Shown here: in pieces, positions 5,802-49,128 of the stretch
Numbering within the stretch: the first letter of the stretch is position 1
Layout of the letters: each line of letters starts with the position of its first letter
Assembly (NCBI RefSeq): GCF_902167635.1
Contig: NZ_CABHMS010000003.1
Span: 667,786-731,785, forward strand
Source of the DNA: Chitinophaga vietnamensis
Lineage (GTDB): Bacteria; Bacteroidota; Bacteroidia; Chitinophagales; Chitinophagaceae
Length of the DNA stretch: 64,000 bases
Reading direction: 5' to 3'
Notes under the pieces: generated by a model
Database searches by the model: none
What the model was told of the DNA's origin: nothing
What the model saw: only the letters and a program-made list of their open reading frames with translations
Translations under genes and position numbers: made by a program

Positions 5802-6932
5802 ATGTCTTTTGAGGAGAAAACCAGTGAGACGGTCAACTCACTAAAATGCCAGAACTGCGGAGCGCTGCTGCATTATGCGCCAGGTACGAACAGCCTGCGT
5901 TGTGAATATTGCGGTACCGTTAATGTGATTGAAGATACTGCGCAAACACCCGCTGCCATTCATTCTTTTGATTACAATGAATTTATTCATGCAGAAGAGT
6001 CGCATACCAGCGCCACGCAGGAAGCGGTAGTGGTGAAATGTACCAACTGTGGTGCGGCTACTACTTTGCCTCCTAACGTTACAGCAGATGCATGCCCTTT
6101 CTGCGCATCGCCGCTTGTAGTGGACCATGCGAAAACCACTACAATGTTGCAGCCGCACTATGTGCTTCCCTTTGTGGTGAAAGACAATGAAGCATTGCAG
6201 TACTTCCGCAGCTGGATGAGCAAGCTCTGGTTTGCACCATCGGACCTCGTGAAGAAAGTGAAAGATGGTTCATCGCAACAGCTGAAGGGCGTGTATCTTC
6301 CGCATTGGAGCTATGATACCAATACCAGCACCGATTATCGTGGGCAGCGCGGCGAATATTATTGGGTCACCGAAACATATGAAGAAGAAGTAGATGGCCG
6401 TACCGAAGTGCGTACGCGCGAAGTGCGGCATACTGCCTGGTATCCTGCTGCCGGAACCGTGTTCAACCAGTTCCAGGATGTGTTGGTATCGGCGAGCCCT
6501 TCACTGCCGCAAAAGATGGCGCAGGTAATTGAGCCCTGGAAGCTGGAACAGCTGAAAGCCTACGACGGCCGGTATCTCAGCGGTTTCCGGGCAGAGCTGT
6601 ACCAAACGGATGCCAAGCAAGGCCTTACCATTGCTAAACGCAGGATGGACCCGGAGATTCGTTCAGAAATCTGCGGAGATATCGGCGGTGATGAACAAGT
6701 GATCGATGATTATGATGTTGCTTATAATGATCTTGCCCTGAAATATCTGCTGCTGCCTGTGTGGATCAGCGCCTACAAGTATGATGGCAAAGTGTATCAT
6801 TTCGTTGTCAATGCCAGCACCGGCGAAGTGGCCGGCGATCGCCCCTACAGCTGGATCAAGATCGCAGGCCTGGTGATTTCGATCATCCTGATTGTGGTGT
6901 TATTGTACCAGTTATTTGCCCATCAACATTAG
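5802..6932 (+). CDS. Double zinc-ribbon protein with a C-terminal membrane anchor
   Basis: Protein of 376 residues. Two zinc ribbons open it: Cys16/Cys19 with Cys34/Cys37, and Cys80/Cys83 with Cys98/Cys101 (CQNCG, CEYCG, CTNCG and CPFC). A large soluble region with W-rich segments follows, and a hydrophobic span near residues 347-370 ends the protein, predicting a tail-type inner-membrane anchor. The layout matches TFIIB-type zinc-ribbon proteins of unknown function found next to SPFH/GYF proteins. The order here (SPFH then zinc ribbon, same strand) supports a common complex. No enzymatic motif is seen, and a DNA-binding role should not be assumed from the ribbons alone. Confidence 0.8.
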   Translation: MSFEEKTSETVNSLKCQNCGALLHYAPGTNSLRCEYCGTVNVIEDTAQTPAAIHSFDYNEFIHAEESHTSATQEAVVVKCTNCGAATTLPPNVTADACPFCASPLVVDHAKTTTMLQPHYVLPFVVKDNEALQYFRSWMSKLWFAPSDLVKKVKDGSSQQLKGVYLPHWSYDTNTSTDYRGQRGEYYWVTETYEEEVDGRTEVRTREVRHTAWYPAAGTVFNQFQDVLVSASPSLPQKMAQVIEPWKLEQLKAYDGRYLSGFRAELYQTDAKQGLTIAKRRMDPEIRSEICGDIGGDEQVIDDYDVAYNDLALKYLLLPVWISAYKYDGKVYHFVVNASTGEVAGDRPYSWIKIAGLVISIILIVVLLYQLFAHQH

Positions 6933-40218: not shown

Positions 40219-41496
40219 TTGCGTCTGAAAAATACATTTGATCAATTTAAGATTACGTACCAGCTGTTGAGATGGACAGTACTGGTGATTCCTGTTGCGC
40301 TTATCGCAGGATCTTTGGTGGCGTTGTTTTTATGGCTGCTGGACCTGGTAACGCATTACCGCTGGGAACATGAATGGTTATTATACCTGTTACCGCTGGC
40401 CGGCGTGGGCATCTACTGGCTATACCGCCTTGGTGGCCGTGATGCAGAGAAAGGCAATAACCTGATCATGGAGGAGATACATCAGCCAGGTGGCGGCGTG
40501 CCTGCGCGTATGGCGCCCTTGGTGCTGCTAACTACTATCATCACGCATCTCTTTGGCGGCTCTGCCGGCCGGGAAGGCACCGCCGTACAGATCGGTGGCA
40601 GTATGGCCGGCCTGATCGGGCGCAAATTGGGACTCACGCAGAAGGATATACGAATTTTATTGATGACAGGGATCGCCGCAGGCTTCGGCGCCGTATTTGG
40701 TACACCGCTCACCGGCGCTGTTTTTGCGCTGGAAGTGCTGGCCATCGGCGCGATCCGCTACGATGCGCTGGTGCCTTGTCTCATCGCCGGTATACTTGCT
40801 GATATTGTTTGCAGCGCCTGGGGCATTCATCATACACATTACGAAATACATTACCAGGCTGCTACCGGCGCCATTCCTTTTATACACACCGATCTGTTGT
40901 TGCTGGCGAAAGTGATACTCGCCGGTGTGGCTTTCGGGCTCACGAGCTTCCTCTTTTCCACTTTGATGCATCGCATCAAGGATCACGCGAACGCCTATAT
41001 TAAAATACCATGGCTCATTCCTGTTGCCGGAGGTCTAATGGTGATCGCCCTTACATTCCTGGCAGGAACAACGGATTATCTCGGCCTCGGCGTAACGAGC
41101 AAATCGCCCGACGGCGTTAGTATTGTGGCGGCGTTTCAGGCCAACAGCAGTGTAAACGGCTGGAGTTGGCTGTGGAAGCTGGTTTTCACGGCTGTTACCT
41201 TGGGCATGGGATTCAAAGGGGGAGAGGTGACGCCCCTGTTTTTTATGGGTGCAACACTGGGTCATGCGCTGGCGTTGGCATTGGGCGCACCGGTAGACCT
41301 CTTCGCCGGCCTCGGGTTTATAGCTGTTTTCGCCGGGGCAACCAATACACCCATTGCCTGTACGCTAATGGGCATTGAATTATTCGGCGCCGAATACGTG
41401 TTGTATTTTGCGGTGGCTTGTTTTACGGCGTATTATTTCAGCGGGCATTCAGGGATTTATGGCGCGCAACGGACGGCAGTTTCGAAGGCAGAATAA
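40219..41496 (+). CDS. ClC-family chloride channel/transporter
   Basis: Membrane protein of 425 residues with the ClC core: [16 protein letters not shown] with gating-type Glu119, [16 protein letters not shown], and [18 protein letters not shown]. The family moves chloride or fluoride through the inner membrane, by channel or H+ antiport; the GREGT version replaces the usual GREGP. No CBS domains follow, so it is the short bacterial type. The best start is TTG at 40219, just after the palindrome. A strong terminator follows the stop. No partner gene is visible; the substrate ion cannot be named with certainty. Confidence 0.9.
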
Positions 41497-41518
41497 GTTG
41501 AGAGATTATTTAATATAG

Positions 41519-41549
41519 CGCGCACCAGAATATCTGGTGCGCGTTTTTT
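41519..41549 (+). terminator. Rho-independent terminator of the ClC gene
   Basis: An 11-base stem, CGCGCACCAGA with TCTGGTGCGCG, closes a three-base loop and is followed by T6. This is the last chromosomal feature before the left att site. Confidence 0.92.
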
Positions 41550-41621
41550 ATTTAAAGGACCAGACGAAAAATCTGTAAGTAGTTAACCTTAGTATCAATA
41601 GCCATCTTTAGTAGTCGGTTA

Positions 41622-41649
41622 TTTTCTTATAATTTATAGTATCTATAAC
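41622..41649 (+). other. Left Xer att site (attL): XerC arm and core kept, XerD arm degenerate
   Basis: XerC arm TTTTCTTATAA, core TTTATA, then GTATCTATAAC where a XerD arm should be. The 14-base string TCTTATAATTTATA (41625-41638) is shared exactly with the right site at 49104-49117. A site with a good XerC arm and a degraded XerD arm is expected of a phage att site used by XerC exchange (VGJ- or TLC-phi type). Confidence 0.75.
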
Positions 41650-42084
41650 ACAAATAGAGAATATGTTTTTCTGGTCTAATGTTCTCTATTTTGTACAAGT
41701 TACTTGATAAGAAGTAGCCACCACAAGGTCCTTTAAAGTTCCTTATATTAGGATTGATTATATAATAGCCAAGTTTTAGTTAGTAATGATCGTTTACGGA
41801 GCTAATGTAAATAGGTTTTTTGAACTGTGTGGTCCTTTTTGAGAATCTTTTTTGAAGGAATTTCCTAAAGCAGCGATAGTATTGAGTTCAAGAGAATTAT
41901 TTTTTTTCAAGACAAGAAATTCGCAGTTTAGCACCGCACTTTTTAAAACTGGCTTTGGTATTGCATTTTATCGAGCTAATGTTTAAGTGAGTTTACAAAG
42001 CATACTGTTAAAGTTTTCATTCTTAACAGTTTGTTATGTGGATTATGAAGATCATCGGATCAGCATAAAAACCCACTTACTTTT
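41650..42084 (+). other. Left non-coding end of the element, with small hairpins
   Basis: No supported gene. AAATAGAGAA (41652-41661) pairs with TTCTCTATTT (41682-41691), ACTGTTAA (42004-42011) with TTAACAGT (42023-42030), and CGGATCA (42056-42062) with TGATCCG (42086-42092), the last covering the first start codon at 42085. Codon-like structure is absent. It could hold early promoters and origin elements. Confidence 0.5.
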
Positions 42085-42606
42085 ATGATCCGAAAAGACC
42101 TAACCCAAACCGTCCCCAACAGTCAAAGTTACTGTAGCAACTGCCCCAAGGCCCCAATGATCAGTACCGTGGAACAACATCTGTTTTTTTACGGTGCTGA
42201 TCGGCAAGAGTTCCCAACAACCAAGGAGCAAGCCGAAATTATTCTACTCTTCAATTTGTCTTATCTACCGTGTGTTATCCGATTACAATTTGCGTCTGAT
42301 ATCGGTAGAATACTGTGGAAAGCAGGCGAGGGGCTTGTAAACAAGCGGGCTTTTATGAAATTCCTCAAATATCATGACGTACCCGCACAGGCTGTTCATG
42401 GTAACGCAATCTTTTTCCCGAAGTATAAGACAGAAGGTACAGCCGTTAACAACTATGTCGTTTTTCACGATGATGGAAGTGTTACCGTCAAGCCACAGCA
42501 CCGCAAATTCACTGTTGATGTAAGATTTTATGAATCTCGCCATTTCTATTTAAAGTTATCAAGATACTTTTCTCTTCCTGCTTTAGAAGTGGTCACCCGC
42601 CTTTGA
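42085..42606 (+). CDS. Prophage protein of unknown function, Cys-containing N-terminus
   Basis: Protein of 173 residues, first gene of the element. A CSNCPKAP motif (residues 17-24) with two cysteines could bind metal but is not paired with another Cys pair. The rest is mixed alpha/beta with several Phe/Tyr residues and no membrane span. The gene is followed by a hairpin and then the replication initiator, so it may act in replication or its control. I do not recognise the family. Its start codon lies in a predicted seven-base stem. Confidence 0.68.
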   Translation: MIRKDLTQTVPNSQSYCSNCPKAPMISTVEQHLFFYGADRQEFPTTKEQAEIILLFNLSYLPCVIRLQFASDIGRILWKAGEGLVNKRAFMKFLKYHDVPAQAVHGNAIFFPKYKTEGTAVNNYVVFHDDGSVTVKPQHRKFTVDVRFYESRHFYLKLSRYFSLPALEVVTRL

Positions 42607-42608
42607 CA

Positions 42609-42632
42609 ACTCCCGTGAAGTAATACGGGAGT
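42609..42632 (+). other. Hairpin upstream of the replication initiator gene
   Basis: ACTCCCGT (42609-42616) pairs exactly with ACGGGAGT (42625-42632) around eight bases. It lies 45 bases before the Rep start and has no T-run, so it is more likely an origin or regulatory hairpin than a terminator. Confidence 0.5.
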
Positions 42633-42677
42633 GATTCTGCCATTCGCTTAATGATTCGCAAATTTTAATCTACAGTT

Positions 42678-43784
42678 ATGAATTATTGCCATGTTATCGA
42701 CTGGCTTCAATTACACGTAAAGTGTCCGGTGTCGATTGAAGCCAAAGACAACTTTAAGTATCATACGGAAAAACTGGATTTGCAAACCCGGCACTTTAAA
42801 GAGGTGTACGAGATTTCAGTTTTGATGCCTTCAGGCATCTACGAGCGATGCGCTACGTTGGCGTGCAAGCCGCACGCCAGCTTTCTCGGTGGTGATATGG
42901 GATTGCTGAAGATCGAAAATAAATTCCTCTATCAACCTGATCTACGCCGGTTTGTGGCGGAGTTGTTAGAGCAATATAATTTTCGATTTCACGCCATCAG
43001 CCGGATCGATATTGCTATGGACTTCATCAGCTTTAAAGACGGCCTGTCACCGGAGAAATTTATCCGGGATTTCCTTGGTGATATCTATCTCAAAAAACAC
43101 AAAGCCAAGTTTAGCGTTAGCGGGGAACATCAATCCTGCAACACCTTTGAGTATCTGCGTTTCGGCAGTAAGACCAGCGAGTTAAACTATTATCTCTACA
43201 ACAAAAGCCGCGAACTTGAGGCGAACAAGAATAAGCCCTGGATTCGCGAGATGTGGGCTGCCGCTGGCTTTGATGAAAAAGAAACTGTTTGGCGGCTTGA
43301 GTTTAGTTTGAAAAGTTCGTGTAAGGAGTTGCTAGACTATGATGGCGGCGAAGTGGTGCCATTCAATGGCCTAGAAGTCATTACGCCGGAAATGAGTTTC
43401 ACGCTGTTTAAAACGCTCTTCCATAAGCACTTTTCTTTTGTGCATAACAATCAGGGGAACCGGAAAGATAGAATGGAAGAAGTACACTTGCTTGAACTTA
43501 TACGTCCAAACACAAGGGTGTTAAGGCTTTCGGATAAATTGGAAAGTTCACGCATGGATAAGGTATTTATACGACGCATGGAACAGCATAACAATGATAT
43601 GCGAAAGATAGATGTTAACTACGCCTTCTATGGTGCCAAGATTTTATTTGAATACATTGAAAAACGAGCACTTGTAAAATGGTATTTGAAGCACTTCCCC
43701 AACGGAAGTGCCGATCTTTCCGCCATCGGAAAGCGAGCCGGTTTTATAAGTGATGAATACCGGCAACAGGAACTATTTGAATGA
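42678..43784 (+). CDS. Replication initiation protein (Rep_trans/phage Rep type)
   Basis: Rolling-circle-type initiator of 368 residues. The family hallmarks are RIDIAMDF (109-116), YNKSREL (174-180, with candidate active-site Tyr174) and VWRLEFSL (204-211), a pattern known from plasmid and phage Rep proteins of the pfam02486 group. It nicks one strand at the origin and starts single-strand synthesis. The two ends of the element lack other replication genes, so this should be its only initiator. The stop overlaps the next start (ATGA). Assignment by motif pattern only; the exact nick site is not visible. Confidence 0.84.
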   Translation: MNYCHVIDWLQLHVKCPVSIEAKDNFKYHTEKLDLQTRHFKEVYEISVLMPSGIYERCATLACKPHASFLGGDMGLLKIENKFLYQPDLRRFVAELLEQYNFRFHAISRIDIAMDFISFKDGLSPEKFIRDFLGDIYLKKHKAKFSVSGEHQSCNTFEYLRFGSKTSELNYYLYNKSRELEANKNKPWIREMWAAAGFDEKETVWRLEFSLKSSCKELLDYDGGEVVPFNGLEVITPEMSFTLFKTLFHKHFSFVHNNQGNRKDRMEEVHLLELIRPNTRVLRLSDKLESSRMDKVFIRRMEQHNNDMRKIDVNYAFYGAKILFEYIEKRALVKWYLKHFPNGSADLSAIGKRAGFISDEYRQQELFE

Positions 43785-43999
43785 CGAGAAAATCCGTTAA
43801 AGTTATGACAAAGACAATTTCGTTTAAGGTTTTGACACACAAGGACTATATGGCTATTTTCAATATATGCGAGAAGACGGCAAAAAGGTGGATCGCTGAA
43901 GATCGCCGCAGGATTGAATCTAAGCGAATTACCGATTATCATTTGCAAAAACTGTACGGTATTTCTTGGGACCCCCCAACGGGTAATAATCGGGCCTAA
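43781..43999 (+). CDS. Small putative helix-turn-helix protein of the prophage
   Basis: Protein of 72 residues (64 if it starts at 43805), basic, with a possible helix-turn-helix, LTHKDYMAIFNICEKTAKRW, where the second helix has K-T-A-K-R-W. The start at 43781 overlaps the Rep stop by four bases. It could regulate replication or the structural genes. It resembles small phage regulators in size and charge, but no family is recognised. The 3' flank leads into the 44027-44097 hairpin. Confidence 0.6.
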   Translation: MTRKSVKVMTKTISFKVLTHKDYMAIFNICEKTAKRWIAEDRRRIESKRITDYHLQKLYGISWDPPTGNNRA

Positions 44000-44026
44000 T
44001 TGGGCCACAGTGGATGCTTTTAGGGT

Positions 44027-44097
44027 GAGCCTGTGAAGCCGGTTAAGTTTCTTTGAAAAAAAAATTCAATGAAACTATTATCGAACTTCACAGGCTC
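44027..44097 (+). promoter_or_regulatory. Long hairpin that buries the start codon of the next gene
   Basis: Outer stem: GAGCCTGTGAAG (44027-44038) and CTTCACAGGCTC (44086-44097), a perfect 12-base match. Inner stem: AGTTTC, one mismatch, TTGAA (44046-44057) with TTCAA, T, GAAACT (44065-44076). The ATG at 44069-44071 lies in the inner stem. The likely effect is translational control of the 236-residue protein, or a DNA packaging/origin hairpin. Confidence 0.7.
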
Positions 44098-44779
44098 TAG
44101 CAAAGATGACATCTATTTGCAAAGTTCAGCGCATGGCATCGGATTCCATTTTGCTGATCCGGCTGGGGTTGACTTATCAACGATCACGCTTAAAGTAGAT
44201 TTCTTCAGCAAGAATCGCGGTAGTAAAGAGATTTACCCGCGTATGCCTTTCGCAACTGCGTTTGAGATGAACACATTTGAAGAAGGCTTTTATTTGAGGG
44301 ATACCAACTTAGTTAAGGGTTTGATCAAACTTAGCCCAGATGGTTCACTGCATCTTGAAGAGGGTGAATACATCAAAATCTCCTTTGATGGTGCGAAAGC
44401 TACCAATGTTATGAACATTAGCAGCATTGACGCGCCTATCCTTTCAAGCACCTACAAAAACATCTCTGCTGTTACGATCACGGGACAGACAAAAGACCTG
44501 AACGTCGCCGATTCTACCATGCTGCATTTACCTGTCGCGCTCATCGATGAAATTGATATAGTCTACCCGGTGAAAACAGTGAAGTACTCCGGCGCGGAGC
44601 TGGAATACCTTGCACGTGCTATCAACGACCTCGTAAGTGTTGATTCGGCAGGTGCTAATGTTGTTGCAGGATATGAGAAGTATATATCATTGTCCTGTTA
44701 CGACGCCTACAAAGTGGCAATAACCCCACGTGATAACTCGCCTTTCGTGATCTACACGGAAAAGCACAAATCCTTTTAA
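44069..44779 (+). CDS. Prophage structural-protein candidate 1 (236 residues)
   Basis: Beta-rich soluble protein of 236 residues with no signal peptide and no membrane span. It has many Gly/Asp/Ser turns (HGIGFHFADPAGVDLSTITL) and a long run of short strands, as in jelly-roll or receptor-binding virion proteins. The start codon is in a strong hairpin, so expression is probably tightly controlled, as expected for an abundant protein. The next gene follows after two bases and encodes a membrane protein, a pairing seen in membrane-containing phages. A capsid or spike role is inference from composition and context. Confidence 0.6.
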   Translation: MKLLSNFTGSSKDDIYLQSSAHGIGFHFADPAGVDLSTITLKVDFFSKNRGSKEIYPRMPFATAFEMNTFEEGFYLRDTNLVKGLIKLSPDGSLHLEEGEYIKISFDGAKATNVMNISSIDAPILSSTYKNISAVTITGQTKDLNVADSTMLHLPVALIDEIDIVYPVKTVKYSGAELEYLARAINDLVSVDSAGANVVAGYEKYISLSCYDAYKVAITPRDNSPFVIYTEKHKSF

Positions 44780-44781
44780 CC

Positions 44782-45228
44782 ATGAGCTTTTTGGGTAACC
44801 TCTTCAAACGCAAACCCGGCGGTACTTTCTTTGGCAACCTCCTGCGAAAGACAGCTAACACCGTCGCCGGGGCGATTCCCTTTGTTGGTGGAATTGCCAG
44901 CAAGATAGTGGGGCAGGGCGCTATGATGATTTCGCAGGAAGAAGCAGACAAACGGGACCTTTCGGATGCTGACTATGTAGCCAAATACGGGCAAATGAAA
45001 GATGGTCGCCCGGCATCTGTTCTCAATCCTGCCGGTCAGCAGCTTCTTGCAACGGCTGCTACTGGCGCGGTTGCTGGTGCAAACGCAGCGGTAACAACTT
45101 TGAATACAGCCAACGCTGTTGGTGTTTCACCTGATGTGTGGAAGTATTTAAAGTGGCTGCCAGCGATAGCCCTGGCGATTCTCATTTACAAGGTTTACAA
45201 TAACAATCACAAGAAAAAACGTAGATAA
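44782..45228 (+). CDS. Prophage membrane-associated protein (148 residues)
   Basis: Protein of 148 residues. The first ~15 residues are basic (FKRKPGG), then comes a Gly/Ala-rich hydrophobic part (TVAGAIPFVGGIASKIVGQG), a polar middle and an Ala-rich helix, ending in a clear membrane span (WLPAIALAILIYKVY, 128-142) and a lysine/arginine tail. This is consistent with a virion inner-membrane protein or a DNA-binding membrane protein. It ends by overlapping the next ATG by one base. No family recognised. Confidence 0.65.
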   Translation: MSFLGNLFKRKPGGTFFGNLLRKTANTVAGAIPFVGGIASKIVGQGAMMISQEEADKRDLSDADYVAKYGQMKDGRPASVLNPAGQQLLATAATGAVAGANAAVTTLNTANAVGVSPDVWKYLKWLPAIALAILIYKVYNNNHKKKRR

Positions 45229-45341
45229 TGCAAAAGTTGAAAGAATTTTTTACCACGCTTCCGGGCAAGGCTACGGCGGTTCTCGGACTCATTTTGGTTG
45301 TGGTTTTTGTTTGGAAAAAGTCAAACCATAAAAGGCGGTAA
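45228..45341 (+). CDS. Small prophage membrane peptide (37 residues)
   Basis: Starts at 45228, sharing one base with the previous stop (TAATG). The product, MQKLKEFF at its start, has one hydrophobic span (TAVLGLILVVVFVW) and a basic tail KKSNHKRR. Its size and layout fit a small virion membrane protein. The next gene starts two bases after the stop. The frame is too short for routine ORF calling but is well placed in the operon. Confidence 0.65.
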   Translation: MQKLKEFFTTLPGKATAVLGLILVVVFVWKKSNHKRR

Positions 45342-45343
45342 TC

Positions 45344-45763
45344 ATGGCATACGGTAATTACAATCGTGGCTATAACAGCTATCCGCGCACGCTTAACCGT
45401 TCGTATAGCCGTGGAAGTTATAGCCAACGACAGAACAAGAAACACAGCGGCTGCAAAAGCCAAAACGGTTGGGTATCAAGGAAAACCGGCGAACGTGTTG
45501 ATGATTTGCTATTAAAAGGCTGGAATTATTCACGCCGCCGTGGCATGATCAGTTTCGTGGCCGTACCACGAAAGGAGCGCGATACTGCCAACCCGAACTA
45601 CGAACACTGGGTCGTTTCGGTGAGCGCATCGGATGGCCGGAAGACGTTTACAGGCTTCTACAACGTTGCTAAACGCATTCTTGTTATTCCTGACTTGCGG
45701 ATGGTGGCGAACCCTAACGCTCCCAATGGTGGCTATTTTGGCCGGTTCTTTAAAGGAAAGTAA
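45344..45763 (+). CDS. Basic Arg/Tyr-rich prophage protein, candidate nucleic-acid binder
   Basis: Protein of 139 residues. Residues 1-40 are rich in Arg, Tyr, Asn and Ser (YNRGYNSYPRTLNRSYSRGS) and strongly basic, followed by a compact domain with W and aromatic residues and ending FGRFFKGK. Such a protein could bind ssDNA inside a virion. It has no membrane span. It is followed by the 100-base regulatory gap with repeated palindromes. No family recognised; the DNA-binding idea rests on composition. Confidence 0.62.
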   Translation: MAYGNYNRGYNSYPRTLNRSYSRGSYSQRQNKKHSGCKSQNGWVSRKTGERVDDLLLKGWNYSRRRGMISFVAVPRKERDTANPNYEHWVVSVSASDGRKTFTGFYNVAKRILVIPDLRMVANPNAPNGGYFGRFFKGK

Positions 45764-45787
45764 GAAGTCAAATTGATTCATTTAAAA

Positions 45788-45844
45788 ATGTCATGATTAT
45801 GACTTTTTGATAATACTGTTATCATAATGTCATGTTTATGACAT
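45788..45844 (+). promoter_or_regulatory. Iterated dyad repeats in the prophage (operator- or iteron-like)
   Basis: ATGTCATGATTATGAC (45788-45803) and ATGTCATGTTTATGAC (45827-45842, extending to ACAT) are two near-identical 16-mers, each with GTCAT/ATGAC symmetry. Between them lies TGATAA-TACTG-TTATCA (45808-45824). They sit in the only larger gap of the late gene block. Possible binding sites for a prophage regulator or Rep. Confidence 0.58.
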
Positions 45845-45864
45845 GGTAATTAAATTGATATACT

Positions 45865-46005
45865 ATGAATAATATTCTGAAAATTTTGAAATATGCGGGC
45901 GTGCTTCTTATTGTGGTGGAATGCATCAAATCCGCTGTCACAAAGGTGAGTGAGCAGTACCCCGAATTGCTGGAATCCAAAAAAACAAGCGATGTTAACC
46001 AGTAA
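45865..46005 (+). CDS. Small prophage membrane peptide (46 residues)
   Basis: Frame from 45865, starting MNNILKILKYAG, with a membrane span at about residues 8-24 and a polar C-terminus. It ends 14 bases into the transglycosylase gene, so the two are translationally linked. Holin-like size and position are suggestive, but the proof is lacking. Too short for standard ORF calling. Confidence 0.55.
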   Translation: MNNILKILKYAGVLLIVVECIKSAVTKVSEQYPELLESKKTSDVNQ

Positions 46006-46576
46006 CGAGTTATCGTTGATCTTGGGGATCGAGCAGCGGTTGGGCTTTCCGGCTCTTTCATTGGTGGACTGCATTATGTTTGAAACCGGGGGAACGTTTT
46101 CCCCCGGCATTAAAAACAGTTCGTCAGGTGCCACCGGACTGATTCAATTTCTTGAAAGTACTGCGGAAGGAATTGAGAAGGGGTTGTATAAACGGTTGCC
46201 TGCTATGACGGTATCACAGCAACTTGTTTACGTTGAGAAATATTTTTTGCAATTAAAGAAAGTGTATCCAGCTCCACCCAATGAGGCTTTTGACGTTTAT
46301 TGCCTGATGCTTCACCCGCCATTGTTTAATAAACCTGATAGTACTGTTTTTGCTACTGAAGGGACGAAACGATACTTGTGGAACAAAGGATTCGACGTTG
46401 ATAGCTCAGGGGTAATTACAAAAGGCGAGATAAAAAAGAGGTGGGCTACCGGCGTGGAGAAGCTAAAGGCGAAAACTAAACTGCCTATCACCACAGTAAC
46501 GGCATCGTCTTTCATTCTTTTGTCCATAGCGATTTTCCTTGCTGCGATGTACTACATTTTAAACCTACACCAATGA
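45992..46576 (+). CDS. Prophage lytic transglycosylase with C-terminal membrane anchor
   Basis: Protein of 194 residues. The lysozyme-like fold motif is IMFETGGTFSP with catalytic Glu31, followed by SGATGLIQF (45-53), the SLT/goose-lysozyme signature. A hydrophobic span (168-191) ends the protein, so it is anchored to a membrane. It should cut the peptidoglycan strand during entry or release. FLiP also carries a transglycosylase-like gene. The ATG at 45992 is chosen; a longer frame from 45950 overlaps the small membrane gene. Its stop overlaps the next start (ATGA). Confidence 0.82.
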   Translation: MLTSNELSLILGIEQRLGFPALSLVDCIMFETGGTFSPGIKNSSSGATGLIQFLESTAEGIEKGLYKRLPAMTVSQQLVYVEKYFLQLKKVYPAPPNEAFDVYCLMLHPPLFNKPDSTVFATEGTKRYLWNKGFDVDSSGVITKGEIKKRWATGVEKLKAKTKLPITTVTASSFILLSIAIFLAAMYYILNLHQ

Positions 46577-47010
46577 GAAAAGACCAGATTAAAACGTATC
46601 TGCTTTACGGCATCATAGTGGCTGTTATCTACTACTTATGGCGCGGGTTTCAAGCCGCGAGTAAGGTGGTGATGGGGGTTGCGGAATTGGAAGCAGTAGC
46701 GGCATCTTCCAACGTAAGTAAAGACAGGATAGCGGTTTGCAGGGATGTAGCAGAGAAAGCCGAAAAGGCCATTTGGAATACGCACAATATGTTCGGCGTG
46801 ATCCCTATTCTTGACTGGCGGTTTGATGAGGACGAAGATGCAGTTATCCAAAACCTGAACAGGCTTAACACCATCGAGGAAGCCAAGCTAACAAGCCAGT
46901 ATTATCAACAATATAGCAAAGGTAAAAGCCTCCGTGCTGACGTGAAGAAGTATCTCAACAACAGCGAACAGGCACAAATAAAAACAACTATAATCAACAG
47001 TTTGGACTAA
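46573..47010 (+). CDS. Prophage membrane-anchored protein (145 residues)
   Basis: Protein of 145 residues with one N-terminal membrane span (KTYLLYGIIVAVIYYLW, residues 8-24) and a helical soluble part with an Ala/Glu-rich segment. The last residues are polar. The soluble domain likely lies outside the cytoplasm if the span is an anchor. It overlaps both neighbours (four bases at its start, one at its end), so it belongs to the structural block. Function unknown. Confidence 0.65.
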   Translation: MRKDQIKTYLLYGIIVAVIYYLWRGFQAASKVVMGVAELEAVAASSNVSKDRIAVCRDVAEKAEKAIWNTHNMFGVIPILDWRFDEDEDAVIQNLNRLNTIEEAKLTSQYYQQYSKGKSLRADVKKYLNNSEQAQIKTTIINSLD

Positions 47011-47738
47011 TGACACACGGTAACACAGAAGTAAACGGGGGTTTTGCCTTTAACGATCAGTTTTTTGAAGCAATCAAAGCGCCAAAGTATCAGGTACAAA
47101 CCGTAACGCCTGAAGTCATTGGCTATGGTGCTTTTCAGCCGGTGGAACTATTGAAAGTACAGTTTGTTAACGATCCTGAATGGTACACGTTTGCTGAAAA
47201 GGGTATCACTATAATAGAAACAAAGTCAGCTCTCGGATTTCCGCCTACTTACCCTGGCTGGCAGCTTGTAACGAATGTAACAGTACCGCAAGGCTTACCG
47301 AATGTGGCAAAGGTAAAAGGTATTGTGATTCCGGCTAGGCTTGTGGATGTGGCAACAGCATGGAACATTATGAGCATGGAAGGGACAATCCACAAAATCG
47401 ATTATTTTGATTCCTTCGGTGCCGACTACGTTCAATGTGTTCATGAAAGCATGAGCGTACACCCCGGTGTCGGCGAAAGTCACATCGATGGCCGAATCAG
47501 GTTCGGTTTAATGTTACCTTTTCAGGAGCTTCCTGACGATGTTTTGGTACGTGATAAGATTTCGTATAATGTTGACTACAAACATATCTTAGTCGGTAAG
47601 TTAAAAAATGATGACGTGGTAGAGAGCCTTAAAATGCAGTGCTGGCCTGACAATGTAGACTTTTCTATCCTTCACAAACCCGCAGGGATATACGAAGTTG
47701 GTGAAAATTCCAAGTACGTTTTATTTCGCGTGTTGTAA
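47010..47738 (+). CDS. Prophage structural-protein candidate 2 (242 residues)
   Basis: Beta-rich protein of 242 residues, without signal or membrane span. Strand-like segments such as VELLKVQFVNDP and VAKVKGIVIPARLVD alternate with Gly/Pro turns. It starts with the last base of the previous stop and is the last of the coupled block, directly before a 123-base structured region. Together with the 44069 protein it is the best capsid candidate; FLiP's major capsid protein has a double beta-barrel and is of larger size. Role is inference, no homologue was searched. Confidence 0.6.
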   Translation: MTHGNTEVNGGFAFNDQFFEAIKAPKYQVQTVTPEVIGYGAFQPVELLKVQFVNDPEWYTFAEKGITIIETKSALGFPPTYPGWQLVTNVTVPQGLPNVAKVKGIVIPARLVDVATAWNIMSMEGTIHKIDYFDSFGADYVQCVHESMSVHPGVGESHIDGRIRFGLMLPFQELPDDVLVRDKISYNVDYKHILVGKLKNDDVVESLKMQCWPDNVDFSILHKPAGIYEVGENSKYVLFRVL

Positions 47739-47757
47739 TTTTTTATATCTTTAGCGG

Positions 47758-47880
47758 GTCTAAACTTTAACGGATCAAAACACCTCGCGCCGCCCCGGAA
47801 CTAACTTAACTTTCGGGGTTGGCATGGGGATGCAAGTGCCCCAAATTTTCTGGCGCCTCCGGTGTCCGTGAAGTTTAGAC
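47758..47880 (+). other. Structured 123-base intergenic element, three-way-junction-like
   Basis: Basal stem: GTCTAAACTT (47758-47767) and AAGTTTAGAC (47871-47880). The stem continues with CGGA/TCCG, CACC/GGTG and GCGCC/GGCGC (47787-47791 with 47852-47856). Inside are two hairpins: CCCCGGAA (47793-47800) with TTTCGGGG (47811-47818, one G-T pair) and GGGG (47826-47829) with CCCC (47839-47842). Possible origin or packaging signal of the ssDNA genome. Confidence 0.75.
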
Positions 47881-47900
47881 GGTGACCAACCCCCTTTGTT

Positions 47901-48392
47901 ATGATCACTGCAAACGCTTCGACACCCAAATCTGATACTCGGAAAATCTCCCTACACGAATGGTTTTCTTTCTCGCAATCAGTTACCAGCTTTGGCAAGC
48001 TGGTTAAATTATTTAAGGCTACACAACATTACAAGAGCCTGGGCGCTGCGGATCAGCAATATCTTTCGGCTTTCAAAAGTGCTATAGAGATTGTTATCAG
48101 CGCGCATTATATTCTCGCCGAACTCCCTTTAAATCCAATACTAGCAACATATTGCGCAGACGATGTAAATGCTTTTTTACATCATCTGCGTTGCTCTGTT
48201 CTCTCATCAAAGAAATTTGATCAACTCGACGGCATCGAACGGGATGACTTAGAATTTTTTTTGCAAGGGCTGGAACAGTGGTTGACTGATGCAGCCCCCC
48301 TTTTCCATTGTTTGGAAACCCCCGCCGGGGTGGGGGAAGGGGGGAGTGGCGCGGCGGCAGCGCCCTCCCCCGGTTTTATTCATTTTCGCTAA
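47901..48392 (+). CDS. Prophage protein of unknown function (163 residues)
   Basis: Protein of 163 residues. Most of it is helical and polar with a run of short hydrophobic segments (AIEIVISAHYILAELPLNPI, residues ~53-72), no signal and no known motif. The last ~25 residues (ETPAGVGEGG and so on) are Gly/Ala/Pro-rich and are encoded by a strongly GC-rich hairpin, unlike the rest of the gene, so the C-terminal end may be a by-product of a DNA structure. It starts 20 bases after the structured element. Function not assigned. Confidence 0.6.
   Translation: MITANASTPKSDTRKISLHEWFSFSQSVTSFGKLVKLFKATQHYKSLGAADQQYLSAFKSAIEIVISAHYILAELPLNPILATYCADDVNAFLHHLRCSVLSSKKFDQLDGIERDDLEFFLQGLEQWLTDAAPLFHCLETPAGVGEGGSGAAAAPSPGFIHFR
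48340..48371 (+). terminator. GC-rich hairpin at the end of the preceding gene
   Basis: GGGGGAG (48340-48346) pairs with CTCCCCC (48365-48371), and GGCGC (48348-48352) with GCGCC (48360-48364), with one bulged base; GGTTTTATT follows. It overlaps the last codons of the 163-residue gene. Terminator-like, or a packaging hairpin in ssDNA. Confidence 0.55.
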
Positions 48393-48402
48393 TCTTTTCT
48401 AT

Positions 48403-48663
48403 ATGATATCAGCCCCAGTAACTATACAGAACAGGAATTTACTGGCCCGCGCACATTCAGAACTTATTGAGTTGCCAAACATTCTTAGGGGGAAAATCTG
48501 CGCGGAATGTAGTTGGAGCGTGGCGACGTATTATCGCAGATTGAAATTGCTGGACATGGACGGCAAGCCAGTGTTCAGCAACACAGAAACTAAGAGGATC
48601 GAAAAGGTTTTGCGGGAGTTCTACGGAGATGGGATTGTTCTAAACCTACAACCGGAGCGCTAA
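48403..48663 (+). CDS. Small prophage protein, possible helix-turn-helix regulator (86 residues)
   Basis: Protein of 86 residues from the ATG at 48403 (a longer frame from 48289 runs through the hairpin and is unlikely). The segment ICAECSWSVATYYRRLKLLD reads like a recognition-helix region, and the protein is basic. It resembles the 72-residue protein after Rep in general layout (helix, turn, basic helix). It may act as a repressor. It is the last gene before the right att site, which is 438 bases further. Confidence 0.55.
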   Translation: MISAPVTIQNRNLLARAHSELIELPNILRGKICAECSWSVATYYRRLKLLDMDGKPVFSNTETKRIEKVLREFYGDGIVLNLQPER

Positions 48664-49100
48664 AGGGCATCACTATTAGCACAGGATCGATGCCGGGATG
48701 GGGTTTTTACCTCGTCCCAAAATTTGTATGATAATCGTTAACATATAAAAATTATTAATGTTTTCCGCAGTGATGTTTTTACACCGCTGCCTGTTTCATT
48801 TACCAAACCGACCAGCCCCGGACAGATGTTTCTACATCACCGGGCTTATGATGAGCATGATAATTTAATTCTCTTATTGATTCCGAGTGATCCTTGGGCG
48901 GAAGTCCTGCATGGGACGGCGTAGTTAGCGAAATCCTACGGCGGCTGGAAGAAAATTTTTGGCTGGTATTGAAAATAAGATACTTTTATCTCGTTAACGA
49001 AATTATTCAGGCACTGATCCTGAAATCTTCACATTCTAAAAATTCACTTTTAACACAAATGCGCACATATGTAATTACTTTCTAATTTGGTGGTTATGAA
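48664..49100. other. Right non-coding end of the element, with two hairpins
   Basis: No supported gene. GGGATGGGGT (48695-48704) pairs with ACCTCGTCCC (48709-48718; two G-T pairs, TTTT loop). AGCCCCGG (48814-48821) pairs with CCGGGCT (48840 onwards, one bulge), enclosing GATGT/ACATC. An open frame at 48894-49085 has only a TTG start and no supporting signal. The rest is AT-rich. Confidence 0.55.
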
Positions 49101-49128
49101 TAGTCTTATAATTTATATTATGTTAAAT
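49101..49128 (+). other. Right Xer att site (attR), dif-like with canonical XerD arm
   Basis: XerC arm TAGTCTTATAA, core TTTATA, XerD arm TTATGTTAAAT. The XerD arm and the five core bases before it match E. coli dif without change, and 21 of 28 positions match overall. It should be the right-hand product of recombination between the chromosomal dif and the phage site, and suggests that this window lies in the chromosome's terminus region. Confidence 0.8.

Follow-up and report, generated by a model that had tools for sequence, protein, structure and literature searches.

A probable dif-integrated prophage of an icosahedral single-stranded DNA phage in Chitinophaga vietnamensis

How does a 7.5-kb segment without a recognisable integrase come to lie between two dif-type sites of a bacterial chromosome? 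The question is raised by a 64,000-nucleotide stretch of the Chitinophaga vietnamensis genome (the window; assembly GCF_902167635.1, contig NZ_CABHMS010000003.1, positions 667,786 to 731,785), in which a sequence-only reading had placed two such sites at 41622-41649 and 49101-49128, coordinates that were confirmed exactly. It is very likely that the enclosed element, whose features are all given below on the plus strand, is the prophage of an icosahedral single-stranded DNA (ssDNA) phage of the group of FLiP, PhiCjT23 and the Obscuriviridae, integrated at chromosomal dif by the host recombinases XerC and XerD. The earlier finding of no integrase or transposase held for the 10 open reading frames (ORFs) of the element scanned against Pfam and PHROGs, none of which matched such a family, and the insertion was most likely made by the cell's own recombinases. 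The kind of element is already known; what is new is its divergent Chitinophaga lineage, as are the dif-flanked relatives of two polarities in other Bacteroidota, a conserved hairpin ahead of the replication gene, and an attachment (att)-like site in the phages phi18:4, phi12:2 and Omtje.

A dif site, at which the cell resolves its daughter chromosomes, is laid out, as in Escherichia coli and Vibrio, as a XerC arm, a core and a XerD arm, and on this layout we assigned the arms of the window sites ourselves. The right site (49101-49128), TAGTCTTATAA-TTTATA-TTATGTTAAAT, is from its sequence and its matches in the genus the complete chromosomal dif, here in the role of attR: with at most 2 mismatches, 52 of 79 Chitinophaga genomes have one counterpart each and 27 have none, and a reversed control of the site gave no match in any of the 79. 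The left site (41622-41649), TTTTCTTATAA-TTTATA-GTATCTATAAC, was designated attL from its sequence and its copies in relatives, and combines a XerC arm and the core with a degenerate XerD arm; counted by eye, it agrees with the right site at 9 of 11 positions in the XerC arm, 6 of 6 in the core and 6 of 11 in the XerD arm. The span from core to core is 7,479 bp. From 41001 to 49000, each of the eight 1-kb steps has a GC content of 42-46%, and elsewhere in the window values of 46-55% prevail, the few other low-GC steps lying near 11, 21-22 and 62 kb.

This arrangement recurs within the genus. The major capsid protein candidate of the element (44069-44779) was found in four of the 79 genomes, window genome counted, is 81-82% identical across the three relatives (L002, L003 and L004), and has matches in the genome records of Chitinophaga arvensicola DSM 3695 and C. 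niastensis DSM 24859, both of which harbour relatives of the element. All four carriers have a complete dif at the right and a XerC-arm-plus-core copy at the left, spaced 7,479, 6,767, 7,960 and 7,059 bp apart, and the left copy has 1 mismatch in 14 in L002 and L004. Glucokinase and CLC genes (named by Pfam) lie on the left in all four, and an MFS gene lies right of dif in three, the 5 kb right of dif in L003 being without a match. A comparison with element-free genomes, proposed in the sequence-only reading, was made at the dif loci of 47 of the 48 other dif-bearing genomes (G062 was left out): tblastn with Rep, the capsid candidate and the 47010 protein matched nothing in any of the 47, and a second upstream XerC-plus-core copy, with 1 mismatch allowed, was likewise absent. 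The upstream scan extended over 9-11 kb at most loci and over 1.3 kb in L078, and it is not fully sensitive, since it detected the left copy in three of the four carriers and missed that of L003. Eleven of the 47 loci have the CLC gene on the left side of dif, at a distance of 0.26-1.4 kb in 10 and of 6.7 kb in L054, as compared to 7.6-10.1 kb in the carriers, and in seven of the 11 the MFS gene is present at the right as well. These loci are empty sites by synteny between species, not within one strain.

The genes of the element point to ssDNA phages. Profiles of the four-member protein families were compared with 68 of the 70 annotated proteins of five such phages (the two omitted being PhiCjT23 gp14, a minus-strand gene, and Omtje gp1, which spans the record start), and the best six matches per profile are reported. 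The Rep_trans-type initiator recognised earlier was substantiated: Rep (42678-43784), a rolling-circle replication initiator, matches phrog_20614 (E 3.8e-12) and Pfam Rep_trans (27.3 bits, slightly below the cut-off of 29.6; the family is matched by all four members), its profile finds phi18:4, phi12:2, PhiCjT23 and Omtje at 47-54 bits, and 11 of the 12 phage records with tblastn matches to it are Cellulophaga phages. The FLiP replication initiator (ORF 15) is not among the best six matches of this profile, which reach down to 2.5 bits. The capsid candidate, of the double jelly-roll type of the FLiP/PhiCjT23 group, matches phrog_20547, a virion structural protein (E 1.7e-4), and its profile scores best with Omtje (36.6 bits), followed by phi18:4 (31.7) and the PhiCjT23 major capsid protein (19.4; E 2e-6 in the 68-protein set), the FLiP major capsid protein not being among the best six; its identity to the PhiCjT23 capsid protein is about 20%. 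Its predicted structure, a low-confidence model (pLDDT 57.9), found 7zzz of PhiCjT23 (8.3e-9) and 5oac of FLiP (1.9e-7) in Foldseek, and on this model the capsids of these two phages are its best solved-structure matches.

The genes that follow extend this kinship to three lineages. The product of 44782-45228 (phrog_20088, E 3.5e-4) is a candidate virion protein with relatives in FLiP gp9 (26.3 bits) and phi18:4 gp5, its profile scoring 25.6 bits with phi12:2 gp5, that of 45344-45763 is a PhiCjT23 gp7 homologue (34.7 bits), and the 46-amino-acid protein of 45865-46005 resembles the structural protein gp7 of phi18:4 (16.1 bits). The lytic transglycosylase of the sequence-only reading (45995-46576), with a C-terminal hydrophobic segment by eye, is a homologue of FLiP gp14 (79.6 bits) and matches PDB 9udh, a 'lytic transglycosidase', at E 6e-25 and Pfam SLT only at E 0.14. 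It is followed by a protein weakly similar to PhiCjT23 gp12 (46573-47010; 14.1 bits), 61-64% identical in relatives, with an N-terminal hydrophobic segment by eye. Relatives of phi18:4 gp4, gp5 and gp7, which are annotated as virion proteins from mass spectrometry, are thus present in the element; proteins of the phi18:4 gp6 and gp9 types give weak profile signals, and the profile matches listed include none to gp8 (endo-beta-N-acetylglucosaminidase), gp10 or gp11-13 of Obscuriviridae. Gene order parallels that of phi12:2/phi18:4 and of PhiCjT23. As its genes match relatives of PhiCjT23, Obscuriviridae and FLiP, the element is a mosaic that touches, and in one genome connects, three known phage lineages.

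Viral contigs yielded no relatives when scanned with proteins or alignments for the capsid, Rep and 44782, or with the PhiCjT23 capsid, and the Omtje capsid found two contigs only, of phi18:4 and phi12:2 lengths. In phage records, tblastn with the capsid candidate gave a single match (E 0.8), which was judged to be chance, and a sequence search of PDB gave a best E of 0.4 for the capsid and 47010 profiles and nothing for Rep. No profile or hhalign match to a spike of the PhiCjT23 gp13 type was obtained; such proteins diverge fast.

Several observations weigh against the prophage interpretation. The left copy in L003 is the poorer one, with 3 mismatches in 14, and hhalign of the capsid candidate with PhiCjT23 gp5 gave only 17%. 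The 14-mer shared by the window sites, with up to 2 mismatches allowed, has two matches in the window, both exact, and at least two were also obtained in 10 of 100 shuffles, so that the shared 14-mer alone is within chance expectation for the window. In the whole 6.3-Mb genome it occurs exactly at these two places only and with 1 mismatch gives 4 matches, as compared to 3 for a reversed control pattern. The shuffles would accord with chance repeats in AT-rich intergenic DNA around an old chromosomal gene cluster, yet such an origin is scarcely credible, as the right site is the dif of the genus, the pair recurs in relatives and the element is missing at the other dif loci; it is this context of genus dif and recurrence, and not the 14-mer, weak by itself, which makes the site pair credible. 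Rep_trans initiators occur in plasmids too, as would suit an Xer-integrated rolling-circle plasmid. A TLC-like satellite borrowing the capsid of another phage would likewise fit dif, where TLC-type satellites integrate (PMC4246890), but a plasmid or satellite origin is highly improbable for an element with its own capsid candidate and with relatives, albeit weak for gp6 and gp9, of the phi18:4 virion proteins.

Less remote, albeit still unlikely, is a remnant, namely a prophage so decayed and domesticated that it has lost both excision and particle formation. It would be in keeping with right-end ORFs that belong to no family and with the poor XerD arm of the left att, given that CTX-type integration is irreversible (PMC4246890). 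However, the site of the isolated and infectious PhiCjT23 likewise has a poor XerD side, eleven genes are open and in one order in all four elements, and in the nine genes compared synonymous differences (pS 0.67-0.92) exceeded nonsynonymous ones (pN 0.08-0.41) in every pair, which indicates that these genes are maintained as proteins. Readings of the element as a microvirus or a filamentous phage were set aside, as neither microvirus families, capsid protein included, nor a Zot or gpI-type ATPase was matched by any of the 10 ORFs.

An integrated icosahedral ssDNA phage at dif has close counterparts in the literature. The ssDNA phage PhiCjT23 is temperate and has relatives among dif-flanked prophages, and 57 putative PhiCjT23-like prophages with dif at their ends were reported in Flavobacterium by Kejzar et al. 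2022 (PMC9719478). The element shares with these prophages its size (7.5 kb, as compared to 6.0-8.4 kb), a Rep gene closely followed by the capsid gene, 28-nt dif motifs at both ends (here with the left XerD arm degenerate) and the proposed use of XerC/XerD, and it shares with PhiCjT23 the profile matches for Rep, capsid, gp7 and gp12. It differs in its Chitinophaga host, in the low identity of its capsid protein, in its FLiP-type transglycosylase and in having no recognisable gp13 spike. The Obscuriviridae (the Cellulophaga phages phi12:2, phi12a:1 and Omtje; phi18:4), whose ratification dates from 2025 (PMC12451628), have as core proteins a replication factor and eight structural proteins (PMC8776804). 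Their order of Rep, capsid and late gene is paralleled in the element, which has matches to Rep, gp4, gp5 and gp7, with Omtje the best capsid match, and weaker ones to gp6 and gp9; the transglycosylase takes the place of their endo-beta-N-acetylglucosaminidase core gene, and they are described as isolates. FLiP (Finnlakeviridae) has in common the transglycosylase and a gp9 homologue, and its capsid fold is possibly shared, to judge from the match of the low-confidence model, but it has no Rep match among the best six and no exact XerC-core site, and is reported as non-integrating (PMC13269007).

The sequence-only reading had therefore been right in part when it proposed a lysogenic relative of FLiP-like or otherwise undescribed ssDNA phages: the dif prophage, the ssDNA-phage genes and the FLiP-group kinship stand, with PhiCjT23 and Obscuriviridae equally near, but dif prophages had already been reported (PMC9719478), and microvirus proviruses (BMV) of Bacteroidetes, located at sites resembling dif, date back to 2011 (PMC3091885). 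The latter are likewise proviruses of icosahedral ssDNA phages without an integrase and with dif-like ends, and differ from the element in their microvirus genes. Nor is a spread beyond Flavobacterium itself new, since likely FLiP-group prophages in Bacteroidetes were mentioned by Yutin et al. 2018 (PMC5894146) and the FLiP-2 paper (PMC13269007) names Pedobacter, Arcticibacter and a further member of the Sphingobacteriia as carrying putative FLiP-like prophages. The CTX, VGJ and TLC vibriophages also use host XerC/XerD at dif (PMC4246890) but are filamentous; a dif phage lacking a Zot-type ATPase, regarded as unusual in the sequence-only reading, has precedents in the PhiCjT23-like prophages and microvirus proviruses, and FLiP too is without a packaging ATPase (PMC5894146). 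We found no paper joining Chitinophaga with an ssDNA phage and a prophage, in a search that did not extend to supplements, where a listing is possible. Dif-integrating double-jelly-roll ssDNA prophages are hereby extended from Flavobacterium to Chitinophaga and, through divergent relatives, to further Bacteroidota.

Outside the genus, capsid profiles found matches in six of 395 genomes of the phylum and three of 396 of the order, own genome counted in each; excluding it, seven genomes had matches, six of them near dif. G775 carries a PhiCjT23-like prophage, its Rep 75% and its capsid 87% identical, whose XerC-plus-core copies are separated by 7,882 bp. In G561 (L103 / L117, G561:C1:3587273-3604889) a distance of 17.6 kb separates a XerC-plus-core copy from dif, with Obscuriviridae-like genes in between; this span is about twice that of one element and perhaps a tandem of two. 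Divergent relatives in two genomes show the polarity opposite to that of the window element, with core-plus-XerD copies about 6.7 kb apart in G771 (L104; copies at 5980, 6732 and 13457, an additional copy thus lying 0.75 kb further left) and 8.1 kb apart in G715 (L105, reverse; 7380 and 15437). With both polarities in one phage group, XerC-first and XerD-first integration would become comparable on a near-identical genome plan. G128 (L121, G128:C27:84938-92256), which belongs to the same family but to a different genus, holds a dif-flanked element between copies 7,307 bp apart; it has much of the gene set in common, reversed relative to dif. An 8,471 bp contig of G395 (L122, G395:C11) has dif between two oppositely directed Rep genes, either as an inverted element pair or as an assembly artefact. 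A capsid match in G609 (E 2e-4, residues 71-147 only) was rejected, as no phage gene was found in the surrounding stretches searched and the best dif-like site is on a different contig.

An att-like site is also present in isolated phages. PhiCjT23 (L094:1), phi12:2 (L009:5150), phi18:4 (L093:5177) and Omtje (L010:1132) each contain a single exact copy of the string CTATAATTTATA, always on the minus strand. The string is absent from the FLiP genome, and order-1 Markov controls contained it in 1-3 of 200 sequences per phage; phi12:2 and phi18:4, being close relatives, are not two independent cases. In phi18:4 the site continues as GTATGTAAATT, which agrees by eye at 8 of 11 positions with the XerD arm of Chitinophaga, and its start resembles the left junction of G561. 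The strand of the site relative to the genes is opposite in PhiCjT23 (L094) and its close prophage relative G775 (L102:7469); the near-palindromic core may permit either orientation. In the Obscuriviridae, known as free phages, this XerC-arm-plus-core site is possibly attP, a hint from sequence that they too may be able to integrate; a text search of the phi18:4 paper (PMC11946311) gave no occurrence of Xer, dif site or 'integras-'. If the site works, phages now treated as free-living would be temperate. Use of dif may even be ancestral in the double-jelly-roll ssDNA phages of Bacteroidota, with two polarities, Obscuriviridae isolates lysogenic through a working attP, secondary loss in FLiP and the Chitinophaga elements as a separate family-level mosaic branch, a scenario which we hold to be slightly short of probable.

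Of the recombinases that integration would need, the host encodes XerD, at 353 bits against a cut-off of 330, and another Xer protein that fits the XerC model best but, with 282 bits, falls short of its cut-off of 335; a third tyrosine-recombinase match scored 28.5 bits. Integration starts with XerC in CTX and VGJ and with XerD in TLC (PMC4246890), and the former class is the likelier one here because the differing arm is that of XerD. A circular replicative form of 7,479 bp, its attP consisting of a good XerC arm, the core and a poor XerD arm, would undergo strand exchange by XerC as in CTX/VGJ, leaving a left junction of host XerC arm and phage XerD side and a right junction of phage XerC arm and host XerD arm; the latter would restore a complete dif, and the host would therefore retain dimer resolution. 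Upon induction the circle would be excised or rolled out, Rep would nick a hairpin upstream of its own gene, and a double-jelly-roll capsid, possibly with a membrane, would take up the ssDNA; the transglycosylase would act during entry or in lysis, and recognition of the host would fall to the 47010 protein. Both the excision of the element and single-stranded DNA in its virion are predictions.

Of the hairpins reported in the sequence-only reading, which are indeed present, one is conserved: a perfect 8-bp stem, ACTCCCGT-8nt-ACGGGAGT (42609-42632), 45 nt upstream of rep, is the same in all four elements, while the sequence around it is poorly conserved. PhiCjT23 has a similar hairpin, GTTGCCGT-8nt-ACGGCAAC, 27 nt upstream of rep, with the inner CCGT-8nt-ACGG in common; the same scan upstream of rep found none in phi18:4 and a different hairpin in Omtje. 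The pre-rep hairpin is a candidate rolling-circle origin or nick site.

The remaining features are less conserved or less readily assigned. The late gene at 47010-47738 encodes the fastest-diverging late protein, 40-42% identical in relatives as compared to 81-82% for the capsid candidate, which fits the expectation for a host-recognition protein, and by its position it is perhaps the spike. Rep, the 44069 protein and this protein had been singled out for homology and structure comparison, and matches to ssDNA phages were obtained for the first two, the 47010 protein having no homologue by profile or hhalign and no PDB fold match at E<=0.001. The profiles of the 42085, 43781 and 47010 proteins have no worthwhile match among their best six. 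The variable left-end gene (42085-42606) encodes a 173-amino-acid protein with no Pfam family and a best PHROG E of 0.21, whose local identity is 58% (residues 73-173) in L002, 38% in L003 and 36% in L004. The 72-amino-acid protein of 43781-43999 has a weak helix-turn-helix signal (Pfam HTH_17, E 0.066, under cut-off) and occupies the position of gp3 in phi12:2 / phi18:4, with a profile score of only 4 bits; a 37-amino-acid peptide, hydrophobic by eye (45228-45341), is present in all three relatives. A conserved non-coding stretch (47789-47903), possibly a regulatory or packaging signal, has 75-77% nucleotide identity with L002 and L003 and aligns in L004 too, keeping its nucleotide alignment among carriers unlike most of the neighbouring late gene. 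The variable right-end region holds a 163-amino-acid ORF (47901-48392) with a weak match to one ORF of L003 (22% identity, E 7e-6) and an open frame of 86 amino acids (48403-48663) with no NCBIfam or Pfam match; a GC-rich block of 67 bases at 48305-48370 is 91% identical in L004, and none is reported in L002 or L003.

Among the element-free dif loci, a transglycosylase match in L049 (36% identity, 3.7 kb right of dif) was taken as an unrelated enzyme, with no Rep or capsid match there. At this locus the core and XerD arm also recur, as an exact copy lying 10.5 kb to the right of dif and possibly belonging to another dif-using element.

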